Assembly: GCA_032622095.1 (NCBI GenBank)
Contig: CP136061.1
Coordinates: forward strand, 168,089,107 to 168,153,106
Direction of reading: 5' to 3'
DNA length: 64,000 nucleotides
Source: Siphonodentalium dalli
Lineage: Eukaryota; Mollusca; Scaphopoda; Gadilida; Siphonodentaliidae
This document shows positions 2,072-57,700 of this stretch, one piece after another (within the stretch, counting starts at the first letter, position 1; each line of letters starts with the position of its first letter). Below the pieces are notes generated by a model. The model searched no databases. It was not told where the DNA came from and worked only from the letters and a program-made list of their open reading frames with translations. The position numbers and the translations under genes are program-made.

Positions 2072-2093
2072 GTATGTGGTTATTGTTATAGCC

Positions 2094-4845: not shown

Positions 4846-7247
4846 TTGGTATGGATGTTCACCACTATAAGGACATTCAATGGCATCTGTTCAATGTATG
4901 CACCGGACGACAGTATATCTTGTTTTTGCACTGATTTAAATTTCATTATTTTTGTTCTTTCATTTGGTATTCCACATTATAGACAGGACATATCTCATTA
5001 TTTTTGTCATTTTTTTTGTCTTCCAGATTGGAGAGGGTAGAAGATTTCAGATACTCTGAAGCATATAGAAGATGGCCACATCCAAGATAACGCAGCGAAT
5101 CAAATGTCTGGTTATTATTATAGCCCCTTATTAAAAAAGGGTATATTGTTTTGCACGTGTCTGTCCGGACATGCGTTCGTACATCCGCACAATGTCTGTT
5201 CAATGTTATAACTTGAACCGTAGTGCTCTGATCTCAATGAAATTTGGTATGGGTCTTCACCACTATAAGGACATTCAATGGCATCTGTCCAATGTATGCA
5301 CCGGACGACAGTATATCTTGTTTTTGCACTGATTTAAATTTCATTAGTTTTGTTCTTTCATTTTGTATTCCACATTAGGCAGGACAGATCTCATTATTTT
5401 TGTCATTCTGTTTTGTCTTCCAGATTGGAGAGGGTACAATATTTCAGATACTCGGAAGCATACAGAAGATGGCCACATCCAAGATAACGCAGCGAATCAA
5501 ATGTCTGGTTATTGTTATAGCCTCTTTTTAAAAAAGGTATATTGTTTTGCATCTGTCTGTCCGGACGTTCGTACGTACATCCGCCCAATGTCTGTTCATG
5601 CCATAGTGCTCGGTTCTGAATGAAATTTGGTATGGATGTTCCCTACTATGAGTATACTCAGTAGAATATTCCATCGTTTTGTTCAGATTATTCATTCTAG
5701 AGTTATTCATCTTTGTTTATCTGGAAATGTTGGCTTTTTGGTCTGTCTGATGTCTTTTCGGGACATAACTTGAACAATAATGCTCGGTTCTCAATGATAT
5801 TTGGTATGGATGTTCACCACTATAAGGACATTCAATGGCATCTGTTCAATGTATGCACCGGACGACAGTATATCTTGTTTTTGCACTGATTTAAATTTCA
5901 TTATTTTTGTTCTTTCATTTGGTATTCCACATTATAGACAGGACATATCTCATTATTTTTGTCATTTTGTTTTGTCTTCCAGATTGGAGAGGGTAGAAGA
6001 TTTCAGATACTCTGAAGCATATAGAAGATGGCCACATCCAAGATAACGCAGCGAATCAAATGTCTGGTTATTATTATAGCCCCTTATTAAAAAAGGGTAT
6101 ATTGTTTTGCACGTGTCTGTCCGGACATGCGTTCGTACATCCGCACAATGTCTGTTCAATGTTATAACTTGAACCGTAGTGCTCTGATCTCAATGAAATT
6201 TGGTATGGGTGTTCACCACTATAAGGACATTCAATGGCATCTGTCCAATGTATGCACCGGACGACAGTATATCTTGTTTTTGCACTGATTTAAATTTCAT
6301 TAGTTTTGTTCTTTCATTTTGTATTCCACATTAGGCAGGACAGATCTCATTATTTTTGTCATTCTGTTTTGTCTTCCAGATTGGAGAGGGTACAATATTT
6401 CAGATACTCGGAAGCATACAGAAGATGGCCACATCCAAGATAACGCAGCGAATCAAATGTCTGGTTATTGTTATAGCCCCTTTTTAAAAAAGGTATATTG
6501 TTTTGCATCTGTCTGTCCGGACGTTCGTACGTACATCCGCCCAATGTCTGTTCATGCCATAGTGCTCGGTTCTGAATGAAATTTGGTATGGATGTTCCCT
6601 ACTCTGAGTATACTCAGTAGAATATTCCATCGTTTTGTTCAGATTATTCATTCTAGAGTTATTCATCCTTGTTTATCTGGAAATGTTGGCTTTTTGGTCT
6701 GTCTGATGTCTTTTCGGGACATAACTTGAACAATAATGCTCGGTTCTCAATGATATTTGGTATGGATGTTCACCACTATAAGGACATTCAATGGCATCTG
6801 TTCAATGTATGCACCGAGCGACAGTATATCTTGTTTTTGCACTGATTTAAATTTCATTATTTTTGTTCTTTCATTTGGTATTCCACATTATAGACAGGAC
6901 ATATCTCATTATTTTTGTCATTTTGTTTTGTCTTCCAGATTGTAGAGGGTAGAAGATTTCAGATACTCTGAAGCATATAGAAGATGGCCACATCCAAGAT
7001 AACGCAGCGAATCAAATGTCTGGTTATTATTATAGCCCCTTATTAAAAAAGGGTATATTGTTTTGCACGTGTCGGTCCGGACATGCGTTCGTACATCCGC
7101 ACAATGTCTGTTCAATGTTATAACTTGAACCGTAGTGCTCTGATCTCAATGAAATTTGGTATGGGTCTTCACCACTATAAGGACATTCAATGGCATCTGT
7201 CCAATGTATGCACCGGACGACAGTATATCTTGTTTTTGCACTGATTT

Positions 7248-25979: not shown

Positions 25980-28900
25980 GCACTGATTTAAATTTCATTA
26001 ATTTTGTTCTTTCATTTTGTATTCCACATTAGGCAGGACAGATCTCATTATTTTTGTCATTCTGTTTTGTCTTCCAGATTGGAGAGGGTACAATATTTCA
26101 GATACTCGGAAGCATACAGAAGATGGCCACATCCAAGATAACGCAGCGAATCAAATGTCTGGTTATTGTTATAGCCCCTTTTTTAAAAAGGTATATTGTT
26201 TTGCATCTGTCTGTCCGGACTTTCGTACGTACATCCGCCCAATGTCTGTTCATGCAATAGTGCTCGGTTCTGAATGAAATTTGGTATGGATGTTCCCTAC
26301 TATGAGTATACTCAGTAGAATATTCCATCGTTTTGTTCAGATTATTCATTCTAGAGTTATTCATCCTTGTTTATCTGGAAATGTTGGCTTTTTGGTCTGT
26401 CTGATGTCTTTTCGGGACATAACTTGAACAATAATGCTCGGTTCTCAATGATATTTGGTATGGATGTTCACCACTATAAGAACATTCAATGGCATCTGTT
26501 CAATGTATGCACCGGACGACAGTATATCTTGTTTTTGCACTGATTTAAATTTCATTATTTTTGTTCTTTCATTTGGTATTCCACATTATAGACAGGACAT
26601 ATCTCATTATTTTTGTCATTTTGTTTTGTCTTCCAGATTGGAGAGGGTAGAAGATTTCAGATACTCTGAAGCATATAGAAGATGGCCACATCCAAGATAA
26701 CGCAGCGAGTCAAATGTCTGGTTATTATTATAGCCCCTTATTAAAAAAGGGTATATTGTTTTGCACGTGTCTGTCCGGACATGCGTTCGTACATCCGCAC
26801 AATGTCTGTTCAATGTTATAACTTGAACCGTAGTGCTCTGATCTCAATGAAATTTGGTATGGGTGTTCACCACTATAAGGACATTCAATGGCATCTGTCC
26901 AATGTATGCACCGGACGACAGTATATCTTGTTTTTGCACTGATTTAAATTTCATTAGTTTTGTTCTTTCATTTTGTATTCCACATTAGGCAGGACAGATC
27001 TCATTATTTTTGTCATTCTGTTTTGTCTTCCAGATTGGAGAGGGTAGAAGATTTCAGATACTCGGAAGCATACAGAAGATAGCCACATCCAAGATAACGC
27101 AGCGAATCAAATGTCTGGTTATTGTTATAGCCCCTTTTTAAAAAAGGTATATTGTTTTGCATCTGTCTGTCCGGACGTTCGTACGTACATCCGCCCAATG
27201 TCTGTTCATGCCATAGTGCTCGGTTCTGAATGAAATTTGGTATGGATGTTCCCTACTATCAGTATACTCAGTAGAATATTACATCGTTTTGTTCAGATTA
27301 TTCATTCTAGAGTTATTCATCCTTGTTTATCTGGAAATGTTGGCTTTTTGGTCTGTCTGATGTCTTTTCGGGACATAACTTGAACAATAATGCTCGGTTC
27401 TCAATGATATTTGGTATGGATGTTCACCACTATAAGGACATTCAATGGCATCTGTTCAATGTATGCTCCGGATGACAGTATATCTTGTTTTTGCACTGAT
27501 TTAAATTTCATTATTTTTGTTCTTTCATTTGGTATTCCACATTATAGACAGGACAGATCTCATTATTTTTGTCATTTTGTTTTGTCTTCCAGATTGGAGA
27601 GGGTAGAAGATTTCAGATACTCTGAAGCATATAGAAGATGGCCACATCCAAGATAACGCATCGAATCGAATGTCTGGTTATTATTATAGCCCCTTATTAA
27701 AAAAGTGTATATTGTTTTGCAGTGTCTGTCCTGACATGCGTTCGCACATCCGCACAATGTATGTTCAATGTTATAACTTGAACCGTAGTGCTCTGATCTC
27801 AATGAAATTTGGTATGGGTGTTCACCACTATAAGGACATTCAATGGCATCTGTTCAATGTATGCACCGGACGACAGTATATCTTGTTTTTGCACTGATTT
27901 AAATTTCATTATTTTTGTTCTTTCATTTTGTATTTCACATTAGGCAAGACAGATCTCATTATTTTTGTCATTCTGTTTTGTCTTCCAGATTGGAGAGGGT
28001 ACACTATTTCAGATACTCGGAAGCATACAGAAGATGGCCACATCCAAGATAATGCAGCGAATCAAATGTATGTGGTTATTGTTATAGCCCCTTTTTTAAA
28101 AAGGTATATTGTTTTGCATCTGTCTGTCCGGACGTTCGTACGTACATCCGCCCAATGTCTGTTCATGCCATAGTGCTCGGTTCTGAATGAAATTTCGTAT
28201 GGATGTTCCCTACTATGAGTATACTCAGTAGAATATTCCATCGTTTTGTTCAGATTATTCATTCTAGAGTTATTCATCTTTGTTAATCTGGAAATGTTGG
28301 CTTTTTGGTCTGTCTGATGTCTTTTCAGGACATAACTTGAACAATAATGCTCGGTTCTCAATGATATTTGGTATGGGTGTTCACCACTATAAGGACATGC
28401 AATGGCATCTGTTCAATGTATGCACCGGACGACAGTATATCTTGTTTTTGCACTGATTTAAATTTTATTATTTTTGTTCTTTCATTTGGTATTCCACATT
28501 ATAGACAGGACAGATCTCATTATTTTTGTCATTCTGTTTTGTTTTCCAGATTGGAGAGGGTAGAAGATTTCAGATACTCGGAAGCATATAGAAGATGGCC
28601 ACATCCAAGATAACGCAGCGAATCAAATGTCTGGTTATTATTATAGCCCCTTATTAAAAAAGTGTATATTGTTTTGCAGTGTCTGTCCTGACATGCGTTC
28701 GCACATCCGCACAATGTATGTTCAATGTTATATCTTGAACCGTAGTGCTCTGATCTCAATGAAATTTGGTATGGGTGTTCACCACTATAAGGACATTCAA
28801 TGGCATCTGTCCAATGTATGCACGGACGACAGTATATCTTGTTTTTGCACTTATTTTTGTTCTTTCATTTGGTATTCCACATTATAGACAGGACAGATCT

Positions 28901-31500
28901 CATTATTTTTGTCATTTTGTTTTGTCTTCCAGATTGGAGAGGGTAGAAGATTTCATATACTCGGAAGCATACAGAAGATAGCCACATCCAAGATAATGCA
29001 GCGAATCAAATGTATGTGGTTATTGTTATAGCCCCTTTTTTTAAAAGGTATATTGTTTTGCATCTGTCTGTCCGGACGTTCGTACATACATCCGCCCAAT
29101 GTCTGTTCATGCCATAGTGCTCGGTTCTGAATGAAATTTGATATGGATGTTCCCTACTATGAGTATACTCAGTAGAATATTCCATCGTTTTGTTCAGATT
29201 ATTCATTCTAGAGTTATTCATCTTTGTTTATCTGGAAATGTTGGCTTTTTAGTCTGTCTGATGTCTTTTCAGGACATAACTTGAACAATAATGCTCGGTT
29301 CTCAATGATATTTGGTATGGATGTTCACCACTATAAGGACATTCAATGTCATCTGTTCAATGTATGCACCGGATGACAGTATATCTTGTTTTTGCACTGA
29401 TTTAAATTTCATTATTTTTGTTCTTTCATTTGGTATTCCACATTATAGACAGGACAGATCTCATTATTTTTGTCATTTTGTTTTGTCTTCCAGATTGGAG
29501 AGGGTAGAAGATTTCAGATACTCTGAAGCATATAGAAGATGGCCACATCCAAGATAACGCAGCGAATCGAATGTCTGGTTATTATTATAGCCCCTTATTA
29601 AAAAAGGGTATATTGTTTTGCACGTGTCTGTCCGGACATGCGTTCGCACATCCGAACAATGTCTGTTCAATGTTATAACTTGAACCGTAGTGCTCTGATC
29701 TCAATGAAATTTGGTATGGGTGTTCACCACTATAAGGACATTCAATGGCATCTGTTCAATGTATGCACCGGACGACAGTATATCTTGTTTTTGCACTGAT
29801 TTAAATTTCATTATTTTTGTTCTTTCATTTTGTATTTCACATTAGGCAGGACAGATCTCATTATTTTTGTCATTCTGTTTTGTCTTCCAGATTGGAGAGG
29901 GTACACTATTTCAGATACTCGGAAGCATACAGAAGATGGCCACATCCAAGATAACGCAGCGAATCAAATGTCTGGTTATTGTTATAGCCCCTTTTTTAAA
30001 AAGGTATATTGTTTTGCATCTGTCTGTCCGGACGTTCGTACGTACATCCGCCCAATGTCTGTTCATGCCATAGTGCTCGGTTCTGAATGAAATTTGGTAT
30101 GGATGTTCCCTACTATGAGTATACTCAGTAGAATATTCCATCGTTTTGTTCAGATTATTCATTCTAGAGTTATTCATCTTTGTTTAACTGGAAATGTTGG
30201 CTTTTTGGTCTGTCTGATGTCTTTTCAGGACATAACTTGAACAATAATGCTCGGTTCTCAATGATATTTGGTATGGGTGTTCACCACTATAAGGACATGC
30301 AATGGCATCTGTTCAATGTATGCACCGGACGACAGTATATCTTGTTTTTGCACTGATTTAAATTTTATTATTTTTGTTCTTTCATTTGGTATTCCACATT
30401 ATAGACAGGACAGATCTCATTATTTTTGTCATTCTGTTTTGTTTTCCAGATTGGAGAGGGTAGAAAATTTCAGATACTCGGAAGCATATAGAAGATGGCC
30501 ACATCCAAGATAACGCAGCGAATCAAATGTCTGGTTATTATTATAGCCCCTTATTAAAAAAGTGTATATTGTTTTGCAGTGTCTGTCCTGACATGCGTTC
30601 GCACATCCGCACAATGTATGTTTAATGTTATAACTTGAACCGTAGTGCTCTGATCTCAATGAAATTTGGTATGGGTGTTCACCACTATAAGGACATTCAA
30701 TGGCATCTGTTCAATGTATGCACCGGACGACAGTATATCTTGTTTTTGCACTGATTTAAATTTCATTATTTTTGTTCTTTCATTTTGTATTTCACATTAG
30801 GCAAGACAGATCTCATTATTTTTGTCATTCTGTTTTGTCTTCCAGATTGGAGAGGGTACACTATTTCAGATACTCGGAAGCATACAGAAGATGGCCACAT
30901 CCAAGATAATGCAGCGAATCAAATGTATGTGGTTATTGTTATAGCCCCTTTTTTAAAAAGGTATATTGTTTTGCATCTGTCTGTCCGGACGTTCGTACGT
31001 ACATCCGCCCAATGTCTGTTCATGCCATAGTGCTCGGTTCTGAATGAAATTTGGTATGGATGTTCCCTACTATGAGTATACTCAGTAGAATATTCCATCG
31101 TTTTGTTCAGATTATTCATTCTAGAGTTATTCATCTTTGTTAATCTGGAAATGTTGGCTTTTTGGTCTGTCTGATGTCTTTTCAGGACATAACTTGAACA
31201 ATAATGCTCGGTTCTCAATGATATTTGGTATGGGTGTTCACCACTATAAGGACATGCAATGGCATCTGTTCAATGTATGCACCGGACGACAGTATATCTT
31301 GTTTTTGCACTGATTTAAATTTTATTATTTTTGTTCTTTCATTTGGTATTCCACATTATAGACAGGACAGATCTCATTATTTTTGTCATTCTGTTTTGTT
31401 TTCCAGATTGGAGAGGGTAGAAGATTTCAGATACTCGGAAGCATATAGAAGATGGCCACATCCAAGATAACGCAGCGAATCAAATGTCTGGTTATTATTA
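25980..31500. repeat. Duplicated block, copy 1 (offset 9016 bp)
   Basis: About 5.5 kb recurring at about 35.0-40.51 kb. Shared private variants include 'cataagaacattc' near 26480 and 35496, 'gctccggatg' near 27465 and 36481, the 14-bp deletion near 28851 and 37867, and 'gtagaaaatttcag' near 30462 and 39478. The match ends near 31500, where the short right half continues but the partner at about 40510 switches to the long right half. Confidence 0.85.
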
Positions 31501-34414
31501 TAGCCCCTTATTAAAAAAGTGTATATTGTTTTGCAGTGTCTGTCCTGACATGCGTTCGCACATCCGCACAATGTATGTTCAATGTTATAACTTGAACCGT
31601 AGTGCTCTGATCTCAATGAAATTTGGTATGGGTGTTCACCACTATAAGGACATTCAATGGCATCTGTCCAATGTATGCACGGACGACAGTATATCTTGTT
31701 TTTGCACTGATTTAAATTTCATTATTTTTGTTCTTTCATTTGGTATTCCACATTATAGACAGGACAGATCTCATTATTTTTGTCATTTTGTTTTGTCTTC
31801 CAGATTGGAGAGGGTAAAAGATTTCAGATACTCGGAAGCATACAGAAGATAGCCACATCCAAGATAACGCAGCGAATCAAATGTCTGGTTATTGTTATAG
31901 CCCCTTTTTTAAAAAGGTATATTGTTTTGCATCTGTCTGTCCGGACGTTCGTACGTACATCCGCCCAATGTCTGTTCATGCCATAGTGCTCGGTTCTGAA
32001 TGAAATTTGATATGGATGTTCCCTACTATGAGTATACTCAGTAGAATATTCCATCGTTTTGTTCAGATTATTCATTCTAGAGTTATTCATCTTTGTTTAT
32101 CTGGAAATGTTGGCTTTTTAGTCTGTCTGATGTCTTTTCAGGACATAACTTGAACAATAATGCTCGGTTCTCAATGATATTTGGTATGGATGTTCACCAC
32201 TATAAGGACATTCAATGTCATCTGTTCAATGTATGCACCGGATGACAGTATATCTTGTTTTTGCACTGATTTAAATTTCATTATTTTTGTTCTTTCATTT
32301 GGTATTCCACATTATAGACAGGACAGATCTCATTATTTTTGTCATTTTGTTTTGTCTTCCAGATTGGAGAGGGTAGAAGATTTCAGATACTCGGAAGCAT
32401 ATAGAAGATGGCCACATCCAAGATAACGCAGCGAATCAAATGTCTGGTTATTATTATAGCCCCTTATTAAAAAAGGGTATATTGTTTTGCACGTGTTTGT
32501 CCTGACATGCGTTCGCACATCCGCACAATGTCTATTCAATGTTATAACTTGAACCGTAGTGCTCTGATCTCAATGAAATTTGGTATGGGTGTTCACCACT
32601 ATAAGGACATTCAATGGCATCTGTCCAATGTATGCACCGGACGACAGTATATCTTGTTTTTGCACTGATTTAAATTTCATTATTTTTGTTCTTTCATTTG
32701 GTATTCCACATTATAGACAGGACAGATCTCATTATTTTTGTCATTTTGTTTTGTCTTCCAGATTGGAGAGGGTAGAAGATTTCAGATACTCGGAAGCATA
32801 TAGAAGATGGCCACATCCAAGATAACGCAGCGAATCAAATGTCTGGTTATTATTATAGCCCCTTATTAAAAAAGGGTATATTGTTTTGCACGTGTATGTC
32901 CGGACATGCGTTCGCACATCCGCACAATGTCTGTTCAATGTTATAACTTGAACCGTAGTGCTCTGATCTCAATGAAATTTGGTATGGGTGTTCACCACTA
33001 TAAGGACATTCAATGGCGTCTGTTCAATGTATGCACCGGACGACAGTATATCTTGTTTTTGCACTGATTTAAATTTCATTATTTTTGTTCTTTCATTTTG
33101 TATTTCACTTTAGGCAGGACAGATCTCATTATTTTTGTCATTCTGTTTTGTCTTCCAGATTGGAGAGGGTACACTATTTCAGATACTCGGAAGCATACAG
33201 AAGATGGCCACATCCAAGATAATGCAGCGAATCAAATGTATGTGGTTATTGTTATAGCCCCTTTTTTAAAAAGGTATATTGTTTTGCATCTGTCTGTCCG
33301 GACGTTCGTACGTACATCCGCCCAATGTCTGTTCATGCCATAGTGCTCGGTTCTGAATGAAATTTGGTATGGATGTTCCCTACTATGAGTATACTCAGTA
33401 GAATATTCCATCGTTTTGTTCAGATTATTCATGCTAGAGTTATTCATCTTTGTTTATCTGGAAATGTTGGCTTTTTGGTCTGTCTGATATGTCTTTTCAG
33501 GACATAACTTGAACAATAATGCTCGGTTCTCAATGATATTTGGTATGGGTGTTCACCACTATAAGGACATGCAATGGCATCTGTTCAATGTATGCACCGG
33601 ACGACAGTATATCTTGTTTTTGCACTGATTTAAATTTTATTATTTTTGTTCTTTCATTTGGTATTCCACATTATAGACAGGACAGATCTCATTATTTTTG
33701 TCATTCTGTTTTGTTTTCCAGATTGGAGAGGGTAGAAGATTTCAGATACTCGGAAGCATATAGAAGATGGCCACATCCAAGATAACGCAGCGAATCAAAT
33801 GTCTGGTTATTATTATAGCCCCTTATTAAAAAAGGGTATATTGTTTTGCACGTGTCTGTCCGGACATGCGTTCGCACATCCGCACAATGTCTGTTCAATG
33901 TTATAACTTGAACCGTAGTGCTCTGATCTCAATGAAATTTGGTATGGGTGTTCACCACTATAAGGACATTCAATGGCATCTGTTCAATGTATGCACCGGA
34001 CGACAGTATATCTTGTTTTTGCACTGATTTAAATTTCATTATTTTTGTTCTTTCATTTGGTATTCCACATTATAGACAGGACAGATCTCATTATTTTTGT
34101 CATTTTGTTTTGTCTTCCAGATTGGAGAGGGTAGAAGATTTCAGATACTCGGAAGCATACAGAAGATGGCCACATCCAAGATAACGCAGCGAATCAAATG
34201 TCTGGTTATTGTTATAGCCCCTTTTTAAAAAAGGTATATTGTTTTGCATCTGTCTGTCCGGACGTTCGTACATACATCCGCCCAATGTCTGTTCATGCCA
34301 TAGTGCTCGGTTCTGATTGAAATTTGATATGGATGTTCCCTACTATGAGTATACTCAGTAGAATATTCCATCGTTTTGTTCAGATTATTCATTCTAGAGT
34401 TATTCATCTTGGTT

Positions 34415-37900: not shown

Positions 37901-40510
37901 TAGACAGGACAGATCTCATTATTTTTGTCATTTTGTTTTGTCTTCCAGATTGGAGAGGGTAGAAGATTTCATATACTCGGAAGCATACAGAAGATAGCCA
38001 CATCCAAGATAATGCAGCGAATCAAATGTATGTGGTTATTGTTATAGCCCCTTTTTTTAAAAGGTATATTGTTTTGCATCTGTCTGTCCGGACGTTCGTA
38101 CATACATCCGCCCAATGTCTGTTCATGCCATAGTGCTCGGTTCTGAATGAAATTTGATATGGATGTTCCCTACTATGAGTATACTCAGTAGAATATTCCA
38201 TCGTTTTGTTCAGATTATTCATTCTAGAGTTATTCATCTTTGTTTATCTGGAAATGTTGGCTTTTTAGTCTGTCTGATGTCTTTTCAGGACATAACTTGA
38301 ACAATAATGCTCGGTTCTCAATGATATTTGGTATGGATGTTCACCACTATAAGGACATTCAATGTCATCTGTTCAATGTATGCACCGGATGACAGTATAT
38401 CTTGTTTTTGCACTGATTTAAATTTCATTATTTTTGTTCTTTCATTTGGTATTCCACATTATAGACAGGACAGATCTCATTATTTTTGTCATTTTGTTTT
38501 GTCTTCCAGATTGGAGAGGGTAGAAGATTTCAGATACTCTGAAGCATATAGAAGATGGCCACATCCAAGATAACGCAGCGAATCGAATGTCTGGTTATTA
38601 TTATAGCCCCTTATTAAAAAAGGGTATATTGTTTTGCACGTGTCTGTCCGGACATGCGTTCGCACATCCGAACAATGTCTGTTCAATGTTATAACTTGAA
38701 CCGTAGTGCTCTGATCTCAATGAAATTTGGTATGGGTGTTCACCACTATAAGGACATTCAATGGCATCTGTTCAATGTATGCACCGGACGACAGTATATC
38801 TTGTTTTTGCACTGATTTAAATTTCATTATTTTTGTTCTTTCATTTTGTATTTCACATTAGGCAGGACAGATCTCATTATTTTTGTCATTCTGTTTTGTC
38901 TTCCAGATTGGAGAGGGTACACTATTTCAGATACTCGGAAGCATACAGAAGATGGCCACATCCAAGATAACGCAGCGAATCAAATGTCTGGTTATTGTTA
39001 TAGCCCCTTTTTTAAAAAGGTATATTGTTTTGCATCTGTCTGTCCGGATGTTCGTACGTACATCCGCCCAATGTCTGTTCATGCCATAGCGCTCGGTTCT
39101 GAATGAAATTTGGTATGGATGTTCCCTACTATGAGTATACTCAGTAGAATATTCCATCGTTTTGTTCAGATTATTCATTCTAGAGTTATTCATCTTTGTT
39201 TAACTGGAAATGTTGGCTTTTTGGTCTGTCTGATGTCTTTTCAGGACATAACTTGAACAATAATGCTCGGTTCTCAATGATATTTGGTATGGGTGTTCAC
39301 CACTATAAGGACATGCAATGGCATCTGTTCAATGTATGCACCGGACGACAGTATATCTTGTTTTTGCACTGATTTAAATTTTATTATTTTTGTTCTTTCA
39401 TTTGGTATTCCACATTATAGACAGGACAGATCTCATTATTTTTGTCATTCTGTTTTGTTTTCCAGATTGGAGAGGGTAGAAAATTTCAGATACTCGGAAG
39501 CATATAGAAGATGGCCACATCCAAGATAACGCAGCGAATCAAATGTCTGGTTATTATTATAGCCCCTTATTAAAAAAGTGTATATTGTTTTGCAGTGTCT
39601 GTCCTGACATGCGTTCGCACATCCGCACAATGTATGTTTAATGTTATAACTTGAACCGTAGTGCTCTGATCTCAATGAAATTTGGTATGGGTGTTCACCA
39701 CTATAAGGACATTCAATGGCATCTGTTCAATGTATGCACCGGACGACAGTATATCTTGTTTTTGCACTGATTTAAATTTCATTATTTTTGTTCTTTCATT
39801 TTGTATTTCACATTAGGCAAGACAGATCTCATTATTTTTGTCATTCTGTTTTGTCTTCCAGATTGGAGAGGGTACACTATTTCAGATACTCGGAAGCATA
39901 CAGAAGATGGCCACATCCAAGATAATGCAGCGAATCAAATGTATGTGGTTATTGTTATAGCCCCTTTTTTTAAAAGGTATATTGTTTTGCATCTGTCTGT
40001 CCGGACGTTCGTACGTACATCCGCCCAATGTCTGTTCATGCCATAGTGCTCGGTTCTGAATGAAATTTGGTATGGATGTTCCCTACTATGAGTATACTCA
40101 GTAGAATATTCCATCGTTTTGTTCAGATTATTCATTCTAGAGTTATTCATCTTTGTTAATCTGGAAATGTTGGCTTTTTGGTCTGTCTGATGTCTTTTCA
40201 GGACATAACTTGAACAATAATGCTCGGTTCTCAATGATATTTGGTATGGGTGTTCACCACTATAAGGACATGCAATGGCATCTGTTCAATGTATGCACCG
40301 GACGACAGTATATCTTGTTTTTGCACTGATTTAAATTTTATTATTTTTGTTCTTTCATTTGGTATTCCACATTATAGACAGGACAGATCTCATTATTTTT
40401 GTCATTCTGTTTTGTTTTCCAGATTGGAGAGGGTAGAAGATTTCAGATACTCGGAAGCATATAGAAGATGGCCACATCCAAGATAACGCAGCGAATCAAA
40501 TGTCTGGTTA
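35000..40510. repeat. Duplicated block, copy 2 (offset 9016 bp)
   Basis: Second copy of about 25.98-31.50 kb. A few substitutions separate the copies, such as 'ccggatgttcg' and 'atagcgctcgg' near 39050-39090, where the partner has 'ccggacgttcg' and 'atagtgctcgg'. The same two changes are seen in the 4390-bp partner near 43440-43480, so that copy was made from this block after the block had diverged. Confidence 0.85.
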
Positions 40511-40716
40511 TTGTTATAGCCCCTTTTTAAAAAAGGTATATTGTTTTGCATCTGTCTGTCCGGACGTTCGTACATACATCCGCCCAATGTCTGTTCATGC
40601 CATAGTGCTCGGTTCTGATTGAAATTTGATATGGATGTTCCCTACTATGAGTATACTCAGTAGAATATTCCATCGTTTTGTTCAGATTATTCATTCTAGA
40701 GTTATTCATCTTGGTT

Positions 40717-40750
40717 TATCTGGAAATGTTGGCTATCTGGAAATGTTGGC
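40717..40750. repeat. 17-bp tandem duplication marker, copy 2
   Basis: Same doubled 17-mer as at 34415. The preceding base pattern 'cttggtttatc' is also shared with 34415 but not with 47818, which reads 'ctttgtttatc'. Copies 1 and 2 are therefore closer to each other here than to copy 3. Confidence 0.93.
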
Positions 40751-41199
40751 TTTTTAGTCTGTCTGATGTCTTTTCAGGACATAACTTGAACAATAATGCT
40801 CGGTTCTCAATGATATTTGGTATGGATGTTCACCACTATAAGGACATTCAATCTCATCTGTTCAATGTATGCACCGGATGACAGTATATCTTGTTTTTGC
40901 ACTGATTTAAATTTCATTATTTTTGTTCTTTCATTTGGTATTCCACATTATAGACAGGACAGATCTCATTATTTTTGTCATTTTGTTTTGTCTTCCAGAT
41001 TGGAGAGGGTAGAAGATTTCAGATACTCTGAAGCATATAGAAGATGGCCACATCCAAGATAACGCAGCGAATCAAATGTCTGGTTATTATTATAGCCCCT
41101 TATTAAAAAAGTGTATATTGTTTTGCAGTGTCTGTCCTGACATGCGTTCGCACATCCGCACAATGTATGTTTAATGTTATAACTTGAACCGTAGTGCTC

Positions 41200-44100
41200 T
41201 GATCTCAATGAAATTTGGTATGGGTGTTCACCACTATAAGGACATTCAATGGCATCTGTTCAATGTATGCACCGGACGACAGTATATCTTGTTTTTGCAC
41301 TGATTTAAATTTCATTATTTTTGTTCTTTCATTTTGTATTTCACATTAGGCAAGACAGATCTCATTATTTTTGTCATTCTGTTTTGTCTTCCAGATTGGA
41401 GAGGGTACACTATTTCAGATACTCGGAAGCATACAGAAGATGGCCACATCCAAGATAATGCAGCGAATCAAATGTATGTGGTTATTGTTATAGCCCCTTT
41501 TTTTAAAAGGTATATTGTTTTGCATCTGTCTGTCCGGACGTTCGTACGTACATCCGCCCAATGTCTGTTCATGCCATAGTGCTCGGTTCTGAATGAAATT
41601 TGGTATGGATGTTCCCTACTATGAGTATACTCAGTAGAATATTCCATCGTTTTGTTCAGATTATTCATTCTAGAGTTATTCATCTTTGTTAATCTGGAAA
41701 TGTTGGCTTTTTGGTCTGTCTGATGTCTTTTCAGGACATAACTTGAACAATAATGCTCGGTTCTCAATGATATTTGGTATGGGTGTTCACCACTATAAGG
41801 ACATGCAATGGCATCTGTTCAATGTATGCACCGGACGACAGTATATCTTGTTTTTGCACTGATTTAAATTTTATTATTTTTGTTCTTTCATTTGGTATTC
41901 CACATTATAGACAGGACAGATCTCATTATTTTTGTCATTCTGTTTTGTTTTCCAGATTGGAGAGGGTAGAAGATTTCAGATACTCGGAAGCATATAGAAG
42001 ATGGCCACATCCAAGATAACGCAGCGAATCAAATGTCTGGTTATTATTATAGCCCCTTATTAAAAAAGTGTATATTGTTTTGCAGTGTCTGTCCTGACAT
42101 GCGTTCGCACATCCGCACAATGTATGTTCAATGTTATATCTTGAACCGTAGTGCTCTGATCTCAATGAAATTTGGTATGGGTGTTCACCACTATAAGGAC
42201 ATTCAATGGCATCTGTCCAATGTATGCACGGACGACAGTATATCTTGTTTTTGCACTTATTTTTGTTCTTTCATTTGGTATTCCACATTATAGACAGGAC
42301 AGATCTCATTATTTTTGTCATTTTGTTTTGTCTTCCAGATTGGAGAGGGTAGAAGATTTCATATACTCGGAAGCATACAGAAGATAGCCACATCCAAGAT
42401 AATGCAGCGAATCAAATGTATGTGGTTATTGTTATAGCCCCTTTTTTTAAAAGGTATATTGTTTTGCATCTGTCTGTCCGGACGTTCGTACATACATCCG
42501 CCCAATGTCTGTTCATGCCATAGTGCTCGGTTCTGAATGAAATTTGATATGGATGTTCCCTACTATGAGTATACTCAGTAGAATATTCCATCGTTTTGTT
42601 CAGATTATTCATTCTAGAGTTATTCATCTTTGTTTATCTGGAAATGTTGGCTTTTTAGTCTGTCTGATGTCTTTTCAGGACATAACTTGAACAATAATGC
42701 TCGGTTCTCAATGATATTTGGTATGGATGTTCACCACTATAAGGACATTCAATGTCATCTGTTCAATGTATGCACCGGATGACAGTATATCTTGTTTTTG
42801 CACTGATTTAAATTTCATTATTTTTGTTCTTTCATTTGGTATTCCACATTATAGACAGGACAGATCTCATTATTTTTGTCATTTTGTTTTGTCTTCCAGA
42901 TTGGAGAGGGTAGAAGATTTCAGATACTCTGAAGCATATAGAAGATGGCCACATCCAAGATAACGCAGCGAATCGAATGTCTGGTTATTATTATAGCCCC
43001 TTATTAAAAAAGGGTATATTGTTTTGCACGTGTCTGTCCGGACATGCGTTCGCACATCCGAACAATGTCTGTTCAATGTTATAACTTGAACCGTAGTGCT
43101 CTGATCTCAATGAAATTTGGTATGGGTGTTCACCACTATAAGGACATTCAATGGCATCTGTTCAATGTATGCACCGGACGACAGTATATCTTGTTTTTGC
43201 ACTGATTTAAATTTCATTATTTTTGTTCTTTCATTTTGTATTTCACATTAGGCAGGACAGATCTCATTATTTTTGTCATTCTGTTTTGTCTTCCAGATTG
43301 GAGAGGGTACACTATTTCAGATACTCGGAAGCATACAGAAGATGGCCACATCCAAGATAACGCAGCGAATCAAATGTCTGGTTATTGTTATAGCCCCTTT
43401 TTTAAAAAGGTATATTGTTTTGCATCTGTCTGTCCGGATGTTCGTACGTACATCCGCCCAATGTCTGTTCATGCCATAGCGCTCGGTTCTGAATGAAATT
43501 TGGTATGGATGTTCCCTACTATGAGTATACTCAGTAGAATATTCCATCGTTTTGTTCAGATTATTCATTCTAGAGTTATTCATCTTTGTTTAACTGGAAA
43601 TGTTGGCTTTTTGGTCTGTCTGATGTCTTTTCAGGACATAACTTGAACAATAATGCTCGGTTCTCAATGATATTTGGTATGGGTGTTCACCACTATAAGG
43701 ACATGCAATGGCATCTGTTCAATGTATGCACCGGACGACAGTATATCTTGTTTTTGCACTGATTTAAATTTTATTATTTTTGTTCTTTCATTTGGTATTC
43801 CACATTATAGACAGGACAGATCTCATTATTTTTGTCATTCTGTTTTGTTTTCCAGATTGGAGAGGGTAGAAAATTTCAGATACTCGGAAGCATATAGAAG
43901 ATGGCCACATCCAAGATAACGCAGCGAATCAAATGTCTGGTTATTATTATAGCCCCTTATTAAAAAAGTGTATATTGTTTTGCAGTGTCTGTCCTGACAT
44001 GCGTTCGCACATCCGCACAATGTATGTTTAATGTTATAACTTGAACCGTAGTGCTCTGATCTCAATGAAATTTGGTATGGGTGTTCACCACTATAAGGAC

Positions 44101-44900
44101 ATTCAATGGCATCTGTTCAATGTATGCACCGGACGACAGTATATCTTGTTTTTGCACTGATTTAAATTTCATTATTTTTGTTCTTTCATTTTGTATTTCA
44201 CATTAGGCAAGACAGATCTCATTATTTTTGTCATTCTGTTTTGTCTTCCAGATTGGAGAGGGTACACTATTTCAGATACTCGGAAGCATACAGAAGATGG
44301 CCACATCCAAGATAATGCAGCGAATCAAATGTATGTGGTTATTGTTATAGCCCCTTTTTTTAAAAGGTATATTGTTTTGCATCTGTCTGTCCGGACGTTC
44401 GTACGTACATCCGCCCAATGTCTGTTCATGCCATAGTGCTCGGTTCTGAATGAAATTTGGTATGGATGTTCCCTACTATGAGTATACTCAGTAGAATATT
44501 CCATCGTTTTGTTCAGATTATTCATTCTAGAGTTATTCATCTTTGTTAATCTGGAAATGTTGGCTTTTTGGTCTGTCTGATGTCTTTTCAGGACATAACT
44601 TGAACAATAATGCTCGGTTCTCAATGATATTTGGTATGGGTGTTCACCACTATAAGGACATGCAATGGCATCTGTTCAATGTATGCACCGGACGACAGTA
44701 TATCTTGTTTTTGCACTGATTTAAATTTTATTATTTTTGTTCTTTCATTTGGTATTCCACATTATAGACAGGACAGATCTCATTATTTTTGTCATTCTGT
44801 TTTGTTTTCCAGATTGGAGAGGGTAGAAGATTTCAGATACTCGGAAGCATATAGAAGATGGCCACATCCAAGATAACGCAGCGAATCAAATGTCTGGTTA
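41200..44900. repeat. Duplicated block, copy of about 36.8-40.51 kb (offset 4390 bp)
   Basis: Same monomer order and private variants as about 36.8-40.5 kb, including the 14-bp deletion near 42257 (37867), 'atagcgctcgg' near 43478 (39088) and 'gtagaaaatttcag' near 43868 (39478). It ends near 44.9 kb, where the partner at about 40.51 kb switches monomer type. Confidence 0.83.
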
Positions 44901-47900
44901 TTATTATAGCCCCTTATTAAAAAAGTGTATATTGTTTTGCAGTGTCTGTCCTGACATGCGTTCGCACATCCGCACAATGTATGTTCAATGTTATAACTTG
45001 AACCGTAGTGCTCTGATCTCAATGAAATTTGGTATGGGTGTTCACCACTATAAGGACATTCAATGGCATCTGTCCAATGTATGCACGGACGACAGTATAT
45101 CTTGTTTTTGCACTGATTTAAATTTCATTATTTTTGTTCTTTCATTTGGTATTCCACATTATAGACAGGACAGATCTCATTATTTTTGTCATTTTGTTTT
45201 GTCTTCCAGATTGGAGAGGGTAAAAGATTTCAGATACTCGGAAGCATACAGAAGATAGCCACATCCAAGATAACGCAGCGAATCAAATGTCTGGTTATTG
45301 TTATAGCCCCTTTTTTAAAAAGGTATATTGTTTTGCATCTGTCTGTCCGGACGTTCGTACGTACATCCGCCCAATGTCTGTTCATGCCATAGTGCTCGGT
45401 TCTGAATGAAATTTGATATGGATGTTCCCTACTATGAGTATACTCAGAATATTCCATCGTTTTGTTCAGATTATTCATTCTAGAGTTATTCATCTTTGTT
45501 TATCTGGAAATGTTGGCTTTTTAGTCTGTCTGATGTCTTTTCAGGACATAACTTGAACAATAATGCTCGGTTCTCAATGATATTTGGTATGGATGTTCAC
45601 CACTATAAGGACATTCAATGTCATCTGTTCAATGTATGCACCGGATGACAGTATATCTTGTTTTTGCACTGATTTAAATTTCATTATTTTTGTTCTTTCA
45701 TTTGGTATTCCACATTATAGACAGGACAGATCTCATTATTTTTGTCATTTTGTTTTGTCTTCCAGATTGGAGAGGGTAGAAGATTTCAGATACTCGGAAG
45801 CATATAGAAGATGGCCACATCCAAGATAACGCAGCGAATCAAATGTCTGGTTATTATTATAGCCCCTTATTAAAAAAGGGTATATTGTTTTGCACGTGTT
45901 TGTCCTGACATGCGTTCGCACATCCGCACAATGTCTATTCAATGTTATAACTTGAACCGTAGTGCTCTGATCTCAATGAAATTTGGTATGGGTGTTCACC
46001 ACTATAAGGACATTCAATGGCATCTGTCCAATGTATGCACCGGACGACAGTATATCTTGTTTTTGCACTGATTTAAATTTCATTATTTTTGTTCTTTCAT
46101 TTGGTATTCCACATTATAGACAGGACAGATCTCATTATTTTTGTCATTTTGTTTTGTCTTCCAGATTGGAGAGGGTAGAAGATTTCAGATACTCGGAAGC
46201 ATATAGAAGATGGCCACATCCAAGATAACGCAGCGAATCAAATGTCTGGTTATTATTATAGCCCCTTATTAAAAAAGGGTATATTGTTTTGCACGTGTAT
46301 GTCCGGACATGCGTTCGCACATCCGCACAATGTCTGTTCAATGTTATAACTTGAACCGTAGTGCTCTGATCTCAATGAAATTTGGTATGGGTGTTCACCA
46401 CTATAAGGACATTCAATGGCGTCTGTTCAATGTATGCACCGGACGACAGTATATCTTGTTTTTGCACTGATTTAAATTTCATTATTTTTGTTCTTTCATT
46501 TTGTATTTCACTTTAGGCAGGACAGATCTCATTATTTTTGTCATTCTGTTTTGTCTTCCAGATTGGAGAGGGTACACTATTTCAGATACTCGGAAGCATA
46601 CAGAAGATGGCCACATCCAAGATAATGCAGCGAATCAAATGTATGTGGTTATTGTTATAGCCCCTTTTTTAAAAAGGTATATTGTTTTGCATCTGTCTGT
46701 CCGGACGTTCGTACGTACATCCGCCCAATGTCTGTTCATGCCATAGTGCTCGGTTCTGAATGAAATTTGGTATGGATGTTCCCTACTATGAGTATACTCA
46801 GTAGAATATTCCATCGTTTTGTTCAGATTATTCATGCTAGAGTTATTCATCTTTGTTTATCTGGAAATGTTGGCTTTTTGGTCTGTCTGATATGTCTTTT
46901 CAGGACATAACTTGAACAATAATGCTCGGTTCTCAATGATATTTGGTATGGGTGTTCACCACTATAAGGACATGCAATGGCATCTGTTCAATGTATGCAC
47001 CGGACGACAGTATATCTTGTTTTTGCACTGATTTAAATTTTATTATTTTTGTTCTTTCATTTGGTATTCCACATTATAGACAGGACAGATCTCATTATTT
47101 TTGTCATTCTGTTTTGTTTTCCAGATTGGAGAGGGTAGAAGATTTCAGATACTCGGAAGCATATAGAAGATGGCCACATCCAAGATAACGCAGCGAATCA
47201 AATGTCTGGTTATTATTATAGCCCCTTATTAAAAAAGGGTATATTGTTTTGCACGTGTCTGTCCGGACATGCGTTCGCACATCCGCACAATGTCTGTTCA
47301 ATGTTATAACTTGAACCGTAGTGCTCTGATCTCAATGAAATTTGGTATGGGTGTTCACCACTATAAGGACATTCAATGGCATCTGTTCAATGTATGCACC
47401 GGACGACAGTATATCTTGTTTTTGCACTGATTTAAATTTCATTATTTTTGTTCTTTCATTTGGTATTCCACATTATAGACAGGACAGATCTCATTATTTT
47501 TGTCATTTTGTTTTGTCTTCCAGATTGGAGAGGGTAGAAGATTTCAGATACTCGGAAGCATACAGAAGATGGCCACATCCAAGATAACGCAGCGAATCAA
47601 ATGTCTGGTTATTGTTATAGCCCCTTTTTAAAAAAGGTATATTGTTTTGCATCTGTCTGTCCGGACGTTCGTACATACATCCGCCCAATGTCTGTTCATG
47701 CCATAGTGCTCGGTTCTGATTGAAATTTGATATGGATGTTCCCTACTATGAGTATACTCAGTAGAATATTCCATCGTTTTGTTCAGATTATTCATTCTAG
47801 AGTTATTCATCTTTGTTTATCTGGAAATGTTGGCTATCTGGAAATGTTGGCTTTTTAGTCTGTCTGATGTCTTTTCAGGACATAACTTGAACAATAATGC

Positions 47901-52900: not shown

Positions 52901-53084
52901 AGGGTAGAAGATTTCAGATACTCGGAAGCATATAGAAGATGGCCACATCCAAGATAACGCAGCGAATCAAATGTCTGGTTATTATTATAGCCCCTTATTA
53001 AAAAAGGGTATATTGTTTTGCACGTGTCTGTCCTGACATGCGTTCGCACATCCGCACAATGTATGTTCAATGTTATAACTTGAA

Positions 53085-53092
53085 CCGTAGTG
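53085..53092. repeat. Target-site duplication, left copy (CCGTAGTG)
   Basis: The last satellite bases before the element. The identical 8-mer is at 54753-54760. The base before it (A at left, G at right) and the base after it (A at left, C at right) differ, so the duplication is exactly 8 bp. Many intact monomers in the window give the empty site 'gaaccgtagtgctctg'. Confidence 0.93.
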
Positions 53093-53095
53093 AGG

Positions 53096-53134
53096 TATGT
53101 AAATTTCCCAAAAGCGCCCAATCGAGCGTTACGC
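53096..53134 (+). repeat. Left terminal inverted repeat (imperfect)
   Basis: Starts TATGTAA three bases inside the element and ends in GCGTTACGC. By hand alignment it matches the reverse complement of 54710-54748 at 29 of 39 positions without gaps, with the best blocks at the outer TATGTAA and the inner GCGTTACGC. The outermost three or four bases do not pair. Confidence 0.75.
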
Positions 53135-53420
53135 GCCTTGTGTACAATGGATTACTCATACCGGCGGTGGTACTTTACTCAGCTGCGGAAAGTATCCAGT
53201 TACCCATTCGAGCGCTCCAGTTAAAATTACGCCCAAATGGGATCGCCGCGGTTTGGCCAATAATTCAGGGCTGTATAGATGTAGCCTACTATCTGTTCCG
53301 ACTGGTGTGAAATGTGAGCACGGAAATTACTTTCGCAATGAGGATCCCGTAACTAACGCGTGGATAGTCGGTTCTGCCAAAATTCATAAAAGGATGTATT
53401 GCAGCACAAATATACCGAGC
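53103..53420 (+). pseudogene. Transposase, N-terminal fragment in a different frame
   Basis: A 106-codon open stretch between stops at 53100 and 53421, in a different frame from the catalytic fragment that follows. Its second half looks like protein: cysteines and a histidine spaced as in ...LLSCGKYP..., ...LYRCSLLSVPTGVKCEHG..., then NAWIVGSAKIHKR. From memory, HMGXB3-like transposases carry cysteine-rich zinc-binding segments ahead of the catalytic domain, so this may be a remnant of one. The stretch begins inside the terminal repeat, so its first codons are unlikely to be coding. It ends 22 bases after the start of the next frame, which points to a small indel or to loss of the part between the two fragments. 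The assignment is tentative. Confidence 0.5.
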
Positions 53421-54112
53421 TAAGTTTCCCGCCAAATATTCGGGATGTTATTTCGGACATGATATTGTCAGTTGAAAGGACATACGGACATGATATTCCC
53501 GATGAATCGTGTTATCCACCCCCGACAAGAATGCACGAAGAGTTGGAATTTTTCCCGGCGTTTCCGCTTATTAGAGGGTCCGGACAATATAATGTGGGAA
53601 CACGAGGCGAGACTGTGACAACTGGATGTAGAAAGCTCACAGAAAGCCACAACAAACTGACACCAGGATTATTCTCAGTGTTCTGCCCACATGGCATTTG
53701 TCTTGGATTCCAGGTCATGATGGCATGTGAATCACCTCAGACAGCCTTTGACATTTTAATGAGAAGGTTTTCAAAAATTCCAAAGACAATCATATACGAT
53801 AATTGTTGTAAGTTGCATTTATATGCCTTGCTCAGAGAGCCGGATAGATTTCGTCATTGCAGATTTTTTGTCGACCGTCTTCATTTCCGTGGCCATATTG
53901 GGTGCTCACTTGGCTACGACATGGAAACATATAAATCTGACACATCAGTTCGCTCTATCAACAGCCAAGTGGTCGAACAAGCCAACAGCGGACTGAGACG
54001 TATACAAACTCAACTAACATATATGCCACCTAAAAACTTAATGGTACACGCAGCCGTATTTCTTGCACTTCGAAACAGGAGGAAGGGTGCATCTATAAAA
54101 AAGTTACCATAG
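53390..54112 (+). pseudogene. Transposase catalytic-domain fragment (DDE, KDZ/HMGXB3-like)
   Basis: Open from just after an in-frame stop at 53387-53389 to three consecutive stops at 54110-54118. The first ATG in frame is at 53459. Counting from the TTG at 53399 gives 237 residues. Visible motifs are KLTPG (86-90), CPHGIC (96-101), the acidic IIYDNCC (Asp134), REPDRF (147-151), FFVDRLH (Asp159) followed by a His/Cys cluster RGHIGC (164-169), and NSQVVEQANSGL (Glu193). These match the order I recall from the HMGXB3-like/KDZ-type transposase domain, in which the enzyme cuts and joins element ends in the nucleus. The region that would carry an earlier catalytic Asp upstream of KLTPG is not evident. 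With no start near the front and a frame change from the upstream piece, I call it a broken gene. Confidence 0.75.
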
Positions 54113-54128
54113 TAGTAGTTCACTCTTG

Positions 54129-54183
54129 CATATATGTACGCCAGTTGAGTTTGTATGCGCATAAGACCGCTATTGACCTGTTC
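54129..54183 (-). pseudogene. Inverted fragment of the transposase C-terminal motif
   Basis: On the minus strand this reads EQVNSGLMRIQTQLAYIYA, a diverged copy of EQANSGLRRIQTQLTYM at about 53975-54025 on the plus strand. At the DNA level the two are inverted copies, with 4 extra bases here and a shared 14-bp core 'atacaaactcaact'. Beyond the motif the minus frame meets a stop and similarity ends. It may be the remnant of a second, diverged transposase in opposite orientation, or a local inverted duplication. The differences are mostly at third codon positions, which favours the first explanation. Confidence 0.72.
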
Positions 54184-54187
54184 CACA

Positions 54188-54320
54188 GAACATCTTTAAT
54201 ATTCCATGAGTTGTTAATTTTGTATGAGTATCACATAAAGTGTTTATGGATCTTCTGTGTATAATTATCTAGTGTTATTTAAATAAAATATTATTATTGC
54301 AAAATCTTCCGTTGTTTATG
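54188..54320. other. AT-rich spacer inside the transposon
   Basis: Lies between the inverted transposase fragment and the hairpin. Apart from the AATAAA at 54282 I see no feature. It is not satellite sequence and shows no match to the other parts of the element. Confidence 0.6.
54282..54287 (+). promoter_or_regulatory. Possible polyadenylation signal AATAAA
   Basis: AATAAA about 170 bp after the transposase stop codons, in AT-rich sequence. The position suits a transposase transcript, but the hexamer is common in such sequence and no downstream GU-rich element stands out. Confidence 0.35.
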
Positions 54321-54322
54321 AA

Positions 54323-54510
54323 AAAGAGTCTTTTCAAATGGCCACGCGCCGATCACCACCAGTCGAGCACCAATAGGCGTGTCCCAAACCGGCGGTGCAC
54401 CAATGAGCGTTCGCCAACATATACGATAATGTTTGTACCGCCGGTTTGGGACACGCCTATTGGTGCTCGACTGGTGGTGATCTGCGCGTGGTCATTTGAA
54501 AAGACTCTTT
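54323..54510. repeat. Long hairpin with 74-bp arms
   Basis: Bases 54323-54396 are the reverse complement of 54437-54510 at 72 of 74 positions. The mismatches are 54341 with 54492 and 54350 with 54483. The loop is 40 bp. The arms are much more GC-rich than the surroundings. The loop begins 'gcaccaatgagcgt', a diverged direct copy of 'gcaccaataggcgt' inside the left arm. No clear target duplication borders the hairpin, so a nested foldback/MITE insertion is possible but not shown. A transcript through it would fold into long double-stranded RNA. An open frame through it is explained by the arms and is not a gene. Confidence 0.93.
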
Positions 54511-54520
54511 GTCAAACCAC

Positions 54521-54715
54521 CGCCTGTTTGTACTGATCCCATATACACACTGCGCGTAATTAATTCTTTAATTTTATTGACGCCCCTTTGTGTTACTCAA
54601 TGCCCTAAGCAGCGTAACGCCTGTTTGTACTTATCCACTATACACACTGCGCGTAATTAATCTCTATTCATTGATCGACGCCCCTTTGTGTTACTCATTG
54701 CACTAAGTAGCGTAA
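54521..54715. repeat. Two copies of a 97/98-bp subterminal repeat
   Basis: Unit 1 is 54521-54617 and unit 2 is 54618-54715. Both start CGCCTGTTTGTACT, share 'acacactgcgcgtaattaat' and 'cgcccctttgtgttactca', and end in AGCGTAA. A third partial start, CGCGTGTTTGAG, follows at 54716 and runs into the terminal repeat. The junction motif GCGTAACGC also occurs, inverted, in the left terminal repeat at 53126-53134. Arrays of this kind near transposon ends often bind transposase. That role here is inferred. Confidence 0.88.
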
Positions 54716-54748
54716 CGCGTGTTTGAGCCACTTTGGAATAATTACATA
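54710..54748 (-). repeat. Right terminal inverted repeat (imperfect)
   Basis: Partner of 53096-53134, ending four bases before the target duplication. Its inner block GCGTAACGC is shared with the subterminal repeats just upstream. Confidence 0.75.
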
Positions 54749-54752
54749 TATG

Positions 54753-54760
54753 CCGTAGTG
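54753..54760. repeat. Target-site duplication, right copy (CCGTAGTG)
   Basis: First satellite bases after the element, matching 53085-53092. The satellite then continues in register with no bases lost, as expected for a clean transposition and not for a rearrangement. Confidence 0.93.
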
Positions 54761-57700
54761 CTCTGATCTCAATGAAATTTGGTATGGGTGTTCACCACTA
54801 TAAGGACATTCAATGGCATCTGTCCAATGTATGCACCGGACGACAGTATATCTTGTTTTTGCACTGATTTAAATTTCATTATTTTTGTTCTTTCATTTGG
54901 TATTCCACATTATAGACAGGACAGATCTCATTATTTTTGTCATTTTGTTTTGTCTTCCAGATTGGAGAGGGTAGAAGATTTCAGATACTCGGAAGCATAT
55001 AGAAGATGGCCACATCCAAGATAACGCAGCGAATCAAATGTCTGGTTATTATTATAGCCCCTTATTAAAAAAAGGTATATTGTTTTGCACGTGTCTGTCC
55101 GGACATGCGTTCGCACATCCGCACAATGTCTGTTCAATGTTATAACTTGAACCGTAGTGCTCTGATCTCAATGAAATTTGGTATGGGTGTTCACCACTAT
55201 AAGGACATTCAATGGCATCTGTTCAATGTATGCACCGGACGACAGTATATCTTGTTTTTGAACTGTTTTTTTAAATTTCATTATTTTTGTTCTTTCATTT
55301 TGTATTTCACATTAGGCAGGACAGATCTCATTATTTTTGTCATTCTGTTTTGTCTTCCAGATTGGAGAGGGTACACTATTCAGATACTCGGAAGCATACA
55401 GAAGATGGCCACATCCAAGATAATGCAGCGAATCAAATGTATGTGGTTATTGTTATAGCCCCTTTTTAAAAAAGGTATATTGTTTTGCATCTGTCTGTCC
55501 GGACGTTCGTACGTACATCCGCCCAATGTCTGTTCATGCCATAGTGCTCGGTTCTGAATGAAATTTGGTATGGATGTTCCCTACTATGAGTATACTCAGT
55601 AGAATATTCCATCGTTTTGTTCAAATTATTCATTCTAGAGTTATTCATCTTTGTTTATCTGGAAATGTTGGCTTTTTGGTCTGTCTGATGTCTTTTCATG
55701 ACATAACTTGAACAATAATGCTCGGTTCTCAATGATATTTGGTATGGGTGTTCACCGCTATAAGGACATGCAATGGCATCTGTTCAATGTATGCACCGGA
55801 CGACAGTATATCTTGTTTTTGCACTGATTTAAATTTCATTATTTTTGTTCTTTCATTTGGTATTCCACATTATAGACAGGACAGATCTCATTATTTTTGT
55901 CATTTTGTTTTGTCTTCCAGATTGGAGAGGGTAGAAGATTTCAGATACTCGGAAGCATACAGAAGATGGCCACATCCAAGAAAACGCAGCGAATCAAATG
56001 TCTGGTTATTGTTATAGCCCCTTTTTAAAAAAGGTATATTGTTTTCCATCTGTCTGTCCGGACGTTCGTACATACATCCGCCCAATGTCTGTTCATGCCA
56101 TAGTGCTCGGTTCTGAATGAAATTTGATATGGATGTTCCCTACTATGAGTATACTCAGTAGAATATTCCATCGTTTTGTTCAGATTATTCATTCTAGAGT
56201 TATTCATCTTTGTTTATCTGGAAATGTTGGCTTTTTAGTCTGTCTGATGTCTTTTCAGGACATAACTTGAACAATAATGCTCGGTTCTCAATGATATTTG
56301 GTATGGATGTTCACCACTATAAGGACATTCAATGTCATCTGTTCAATGTATGCACCGGATGACAGTATATCTTGTTTTTGCACTGATTTAAATTTCATTA
56401 TTTTTGTTCTTTCATTTGGTATTCCACATTATAGACAGGACAGATCTCATTATTTTTGTCATTTTGTTTTGTCTTCCAGATTGGAGAGGGTAGAAGATTT
56501 CAGATACTCGGAAGCATATAGAAGATGGCCACATCCAAGATAACGCAGCGAATCAAATGTCTGGTTATTATTATAGCCCCTTATTAAAAAAGGGTATATT
56601 GTTTTGCACGTGTTTGTCCTGACATGCATTCGCACATCCGCACAATGTCTGTTCAATGTTATAACTTGAACCGTAGTGCTCTGATCTCAATGAAATTTGG
56701 TATGGGTGTTCACCACTATAAGGACATTCAATGGCATCTGTCCAATGTATGCACCGGACGACAGTATATCTTGTTTTTGCACTGATTTAAATTTCATTAT
56801 TTTTGTTCTTTCATTTGGTATTCCACATTATAGACAGGACAGATCTCATTATTTTTGTCATTTTGTTTTGTCTTCCAGATTGGAGAGGGTAGAAGATTTC
56901 AGATACTCGGAAGCATATAGAAGATGGCCACATCCAAGATAACGCAGCGAATCAAATGTCTGGTTATTATTATAGCCCCTTATTAAAAAAAGGTATATTG
57001 TTTTGCACGTGTCTGTCCGGACATGCGTTCGCACATCCGCACAATGTCTGTTCAATGTTATAACTTGAACCGTAGTGCTCTGATCTCATTGAAATTTGGT
57101 ATGGGTGTTCACCACTATAAGGACATTCAATGGCGTCTGTTCAATGTATGCACCGGACGACAGTATATCTTGTTTTTGCACTGATTTAAATTTCATTATT
57201 TTTGTTCTTTCATTTTGTATTTCACATTAGGCAGGACAGATCTCATTATTTTTGTCATTCTGTTTTGTCTTCCAGATTGGAGAGGGTACACTATTTCAGA
57301 TACTCGGAAGCATACAGAAGATGGCCACATCCAAGATAATGCAGCGAATCAAATGTATGTGGTTATTGTTATAGCCCCTTTTTAAAAAAGGTATATTGTT
57401 TTGCATCTGTCTATCCGGACGTTCGTACGTACATCCGCCCAATGTCTGTTCATGCCATAGTGCTCGGTTCTGAATGAAATTTGGTATGGATGTTCCCTAC
57501 TATGAGTATACTCAGTAGAATATTCCATCGTTTTGTTCAGATTATTCATTCTAGAGTTATTCATCTTTGTTTATCTGGAAATGTTGGCTTTTTGGTCTGT
57601 CTGATATGTCTTTTCAGGACATAACTTGAACAATAATGCTCGGTTCTCAATGATATTTGGTATGGGTGTTCACCACTATAAGGACATGCAATGGCATCTG

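Follow-up and report, generated by a model that had tools for sequence, protein, structure and literature searches.

A 1,660-bp insert within a satellite array in the window (the whole stretch of 64,000 nucleotides analysed here) is best explained as a shortened cut-and-paste DNA transposon of the KDZ (Kyakuja-Dileera-Zisupton) type, a reading to which we assign a probability of roughly three in four. It looks like an unexceptional relative of KDZ (Zisupton) transposons already known. The evidence comprises an exact target-site duplication that can be set against the many empty sites of this array, imperfect terminal inverted repeats, and an open frame with similarity to the Pfam KDZ family.

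Insertion site and satellite array

The insertion is described by the following features:

53085..53092, + strand: left copy of the 8-bp target-site duplication CCGTAGTG, from comparison of the flanks with empty sites
53093..54752, + strand: inserted element, 1,660 bp, with 43% G+C against 37% in the remaining window
54753..54760, + strand: right copy of the 8-bp target-site duplication CCGTAGTG, from comparison of the flanks with empty sites

Both copies of CCGTAGTG are exact and lie, with the insert between them, inside one satellite unit, as the first-pass annotation had stated in describing a transposon placed cleanly in a satellite monomer. Beyond the 8 bp, no further base on either side matches the empty monomer at 27741, and because no base outside CCGTAGTG agrees with that monomer, the maximal overlap is exactly 8. 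A duplication of 8 bp is the maximal and simplest reading; 7 bp plus one base matching by chance could also account for it.

That the boundaries can be read from empty sites was likewise borne out. The joined flanks with one copy of CCGTAGTG (100 bp) match 8 other places in the window exactly and 62 with at most 12 mismatches, and CCGTAGTG stands at the insertion phase in 54 of the 58 places in the window having the flanking words AACTTGAA and CTCTGATCTC. Among the matches listed, empty paralogues extend over 7.3 kb at 96.9% identity (26605-33897) and 7.1 kb at 97.1% (40190-47300), and longer joined flanks also align to empty paralogues across 1.9 kb with up to 98.3% identity. A 12.9-kb duplication (98.2%) includes the left flank; its alignment ends exactly at 53092. 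Two monomer types occur at the insertion phase, one with CCGTAGTG before CTCTGATCTC (54/58) and one with CAATAATG before CTCGG (63/64).

Satellite sequence makes up nearly the whole window, with units of 397-399 bp in 19 of 23 tandem-repeat rows, and 200-base bins with more than 60% unique 15-base words are confined to 53001-54800. A blastn search of the window for a second copy of the insert (word size 7, E up to 1) returned 0 rows whether or not the low-complexity filter was applied; the positive control for this self-search, a satellite monomer, gave 198. As the insert is single-copy amid duplicated flanks, it appears younger than the nearby duplications, which are now about 2-3% diverged, with the reservation that homogenisation of the array could blur or distort this order. 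This is in line with the earlier proposal of a single copy that arrived after the local amplification.

The array itself contains nested large satellite duplications in 406-15171 and 22177-53092 (12.9 kb at 98.2%, 9.4 kb at 98.5%, and 8.1 kb at 99.0% for 406-8469 against 7104-15171). None of the 185 self-matches of at least 3 kb in the window is in inverted orientation.

Ends of the element

53096..53149, + strand: imperfect left terminal inverted repeat, with identities in 39 of 54 columns as counted on the printed alignment
54696..54748, - strand: right terminal inverted repeat, imperfect, from the alignment with the left end

The outer inverted repeats score 23, a value reached by 0 of 2,000 shuffles (mean 7.2, maximum 19), and the imperfect terminal repeats noted in the first pass are thereby confirmed. 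Random internal 60-mer pairs reached the same score in 16 of 2,000 cases, probably owing to a strong internal hairpin. The terminal repeats are clear against shuffles, yet the element contains a stronger inverted repeat. An extended alignment of the first 300 against the last 420 bases scored 30, with a maximum of 29.5 in 500 shuffles; the claim of inverted ends is based on the outer 54 columns and not on this extended alignment. The ends are read from this single copy.

Under the 8-bp reading, the left end of the element is AG and the right end TG. Read inward, the right end is CATATATGTAA and the left end AGGTATGTAA, one base shorter. Counting the last G of the left duplication as part of the element brings the ends into register, with no offset over 11 bases, and a 7-bp duplication is possible because the ends pair better with this extra left base.

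The 64-kb window contains four occurrences of the motif CAAACCGGCGGTG, allowing up to 2 mismatches, and all are within the element: one lies 64 bases from the left end, the other three in the right quarter. Also restricted to the element are the three exact occurrences of GCGTTACGC in the window. Both motifs could be putative transposase-binding sites.

Open frame and profile searches

53390..54112, + strand: open frame of 240 codons closed by a stop, with a match to Pfam KDZ (PF18758) at residues 92-180

This frame is longer than the longest frame in each of 1,000 shuffles (maximum 209). It had previously been given as 237 residues; the long open frame is present, with a stop-free length of 240 codons. 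The Pfam scan, at E up to 10, covered every stop-free frame of 50 residues or more overlapping the insert, 18 in all. The sole match of the 240-codon frame was KDZ (E 0.00075, 19.7 bits, profile positions 75-171 of 217), and residues 82-234 alone matched KDZ with E 0.00028 and 21.1 bits, both scores falling below the Pfam gathering score for this family of 26.6 bits. Residues 1-93 alone, residues 132-234 alone and, as a control, the exactly reversed protein sequence gave no Pfam match. The frame is thus likely kin to KDZ on the basis of its sequence, with a match below the curators' threshold, so that membership is not proven; to this extent the earlier KDZ-like assignment of the transposon is partly supported. 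No unrelated transposase superfamily emerged from the profile check of the frame, KDZ being its only Pfam match.

The KDZ superfamily is characterised by a complete catalytic triad in an RNase-H fold. The frame may also resemble HMGXB3-like proteins, as the first-pass annotation proposed; the searches returned no HMGXB3 sequence or profile. The frame had no match in NCBIfam, PHROGs or the PDB sequences, and a single-sequence AlphaFold2 model was unusable (pLDDT 38.3).

The 17 other insert frames yielded one Pfam match, EcsB (E 0.035), which was rejected as chance, its 13.4 bits being far under the cut-off of 30.7. Neither hAT nor P profiles matched any of the 18 frames at E up to 10, and the same was true of profiles for the CxC (cysteine-cluster) domain, which is described for fungal KDZ proteins. 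The missing CxC was not counted against KDZ, because its absence would follow from loss of the remaining gene and CxC is not known to define all KDZ elements.

Rfam (gathering scores) and a tRNA scan gave no match in the whole window. P0001 had no match in viral_contigs, exact satellite and subterminal words were not found there, and tblastn against phages returned nothing. Degenerate patterns were made for three conserved-looking stretches: in viral_contigs two had no match, and the 3 loci of the third were rejected as chance (9-residue matches, best E 0.19), as were 5 loci of the first pattern in genome_contigs (best E 0.20). The KDZ family search was negative in the one genome searched; 2 of 14 control genomes had matches at E up to 1, none of them above the cut-off. 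Relatives were thus found in none of the viral contigs, phages and prokaryote genomes (one pattern), collections that are unlikely to contain any.

Region 3' of the stop codon

54133..54186, - strand: antisense fragment of 18 codons, VEQVNSGLMRIQTQLAYI, resembling VEQANSGLRRIQTQLTYM in the frame (53972-54025)
54282..54287, + strand: AATAAA, candidate poly-A signal; the only + strand AATAAA in the element, downstream of the stop
54310..54522, no strand: near-perfect foldback with 90-bp arms (54310-54399 and 54434-54522)
54521..54725, + strand: 98-bp unit in 2.1 tandem copies, right subterminal, from tandem-repeat detection

The antisense fragment aligns to the sense frame with a local score of 49, the maximum of 1,000 shuffles being 33. 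Its 14 base differences from the frame are distributed 1/2/11 over the three codon positions, an excess at third positions (11/14) with a binomial P of 0.0007 against one third. This bias suggests that at least one of the sense and antisense copies evolved as protein-coding after their separation, without distinguishing which. The antisense stretch itself had no Pfam match, and no other coding remnant was seen in its three frames. The AATAAA at 54282 is a possible poly-A signal.

The arms of the foldback share 83 identities with 6 mismatches and 1 gap (folding z -22). It is the only inverted repeat of at least 60 bp in the window (exact seeds of 14), and by eye no duplication of its own is obvious at its borders. 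Parts of the 98-bp unit recur inverted in the left end of the element.

Origin of the insert

In the transposition that we propose, a full-length transposase expressed from another locus would recognise the ends and subterminal repeats in trans, excise the element and insert it at a staggered cut of 8 bp within a single satellite unit, and repair of the gaps would then produce the 8-bp duplication. The retained frame would be what is left of a transposase gene of far greater length: its 240 codons are regarded as a remnant because the Zisupton-type proteins of Pristionchus have 1,166 and 1,367 residues according to excerpts of the published description (PMC9297572). Such a piece is unlikely to be a working enzyme, and for this reason the copy is probably non-autonomous and helper-dependent.

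Among the alternatives, the one with most in its favour, though still improbable, is compatible with the shortened KDZ-type transposon: the insert may be a composite of two KDZ copies that have diverged and meet tail to tail, the right part carrying the antisense remnant of a second transposase. The resemblance of the antisense fragment to the sense gene well above shuffles and the concentration of differences at third codon positions, as between two coding sequences, are consistent with this. However, the fragment is short, at 54 bp, selection on one copy suffices for the bias, a small inverted duplication that later diverged fits as well, and the antisense stretch offers neither a Pfam match nor further coding remnants. 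Slightly less probable is a true duplication of 7 bp (CCGTAGT), in which the element would start with GAGGTATGTAA, in register with the right end CATATATGTAA, in a Kyakuja-like layout. The one added left base then removes the offset between the ends, the eighth base would match accidentally with a chance of about 1 in 4, and excerpts of PMC12730594 give Kyakuja 7-bp duplications and CA..TG termini; but an ancestral CA left end would need its first base changed to exactly the target base, the same excerpts describe Kyakuja without the terminal inverted repeats that are present here, and 8 bp remains simplest.

We consider it doubtful, more so than a 7-bp duplication, that a KDZ gene fragment was captured by an element from some other superfamily that duplicates 8 bp, of hAT or P type. 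P elements make duplications of this length, and a KDZ fragment carried as cargo would likewise be truncated. As hAT elements, too, usually duplicate 8 bp (excerpts of PMC12730594), the duplication suits such a capture, while the lack of hAT or P profiles in the 18 insert frames argues weakly against it, since a short non-autonomous element may lack its gene; the antisense fragment, moreover, resembles the KDZ frame too. Very improbable, in our estimate, is an undescribed KDZ lineage whose transposase transcript would bear an antisense piece of a related transposase after the stop, so that transcripts might pair with themselves or with transcripts from related elements, supplying small-RNA silencing or a self-limitation of the family. 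Least credible of all is an assembly artefact in which unrelated sequence was joined into the array. Satellite arrays are prone to misassembly, yet an exact 8-bp duplication combined with inverted ends is a signature of transposition, not of misjoining.

The insertion point is known to the base and has numerous empty counterparts in one array, which helps to order the growth of the array. Should relatives turn up, the insert would serve to fix the ends and target length of a short family of KDZ type; failing that, it counts as an ordinary transposon insertion. New anatomical details are the hairpin with 90-bp arms, the 98-bp tandem duplication in the right end and the 18-codon antisense transposase-like fragment.

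Comparison with known systems

The KDZ features present here are the 8-bp target duplication (which may be read as 7+1) and the imperfect terminal inverted repeats. All comparisons draw on excerpts of the cited papers. For Zisupton and the Dileera element Zisupton-1_PGr, 8-bp duplications are described (PMC12730594), as they are as a rule for hAT elements (PMC12730594). In Cryptococcus neoformans, KDZ1 has 8-bp duplications, a length of about 11 kb, 241-bp inverted repeats and a CxC1 domain, and the Cryptococcus elements KDZ2 and KDZ3 have terminal inverted repeats and duplications of 4-8 bp (PMC12810828). In Pristionchus, inverted repeats were seen and a target duplication was not detected, as far as the excerpted text goes (PMC9297572). 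With 4-8 bp in KDZ2 and KDZ3 and none detected in Pristionchus, 8 bp is not a strict hallmark of KDZ. Among giant transposon families of Ectocarpus, which include KDZ, the transposase gene is often predicted to be pseudogenised, and the authors infer movement in trans (PMC12477816).

The insert shares 8-bp duplications, terminal inverted repeats and a likely KDZ-type domain with Zisupton of fish, fungi and other eukaryotes (PMC12730594, PMC9297572), from which it differs, in a comparison by description only, in its 1.66 kb and in having only 240 codons of a transposase. It likewise has 8-bp duplications, terminal inverted repeats and a likely KDZ domain in common with KDZ1 of Cryptococcus neoformans (PMC12810828), whereas its ends are short and imperfect and it gave no CxC match. 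With the fungal Kyakuja elements (PMC12730594) it has in common a transposase that is likely of the KDZ superfamily and a right end of TG; unlike these, for which the excerpts describe 7-bp duplications, CA..TG termini and no terminal inverted repeats, it has a maximal duplication of 8 bp, a left end of AG and inverted repeats.
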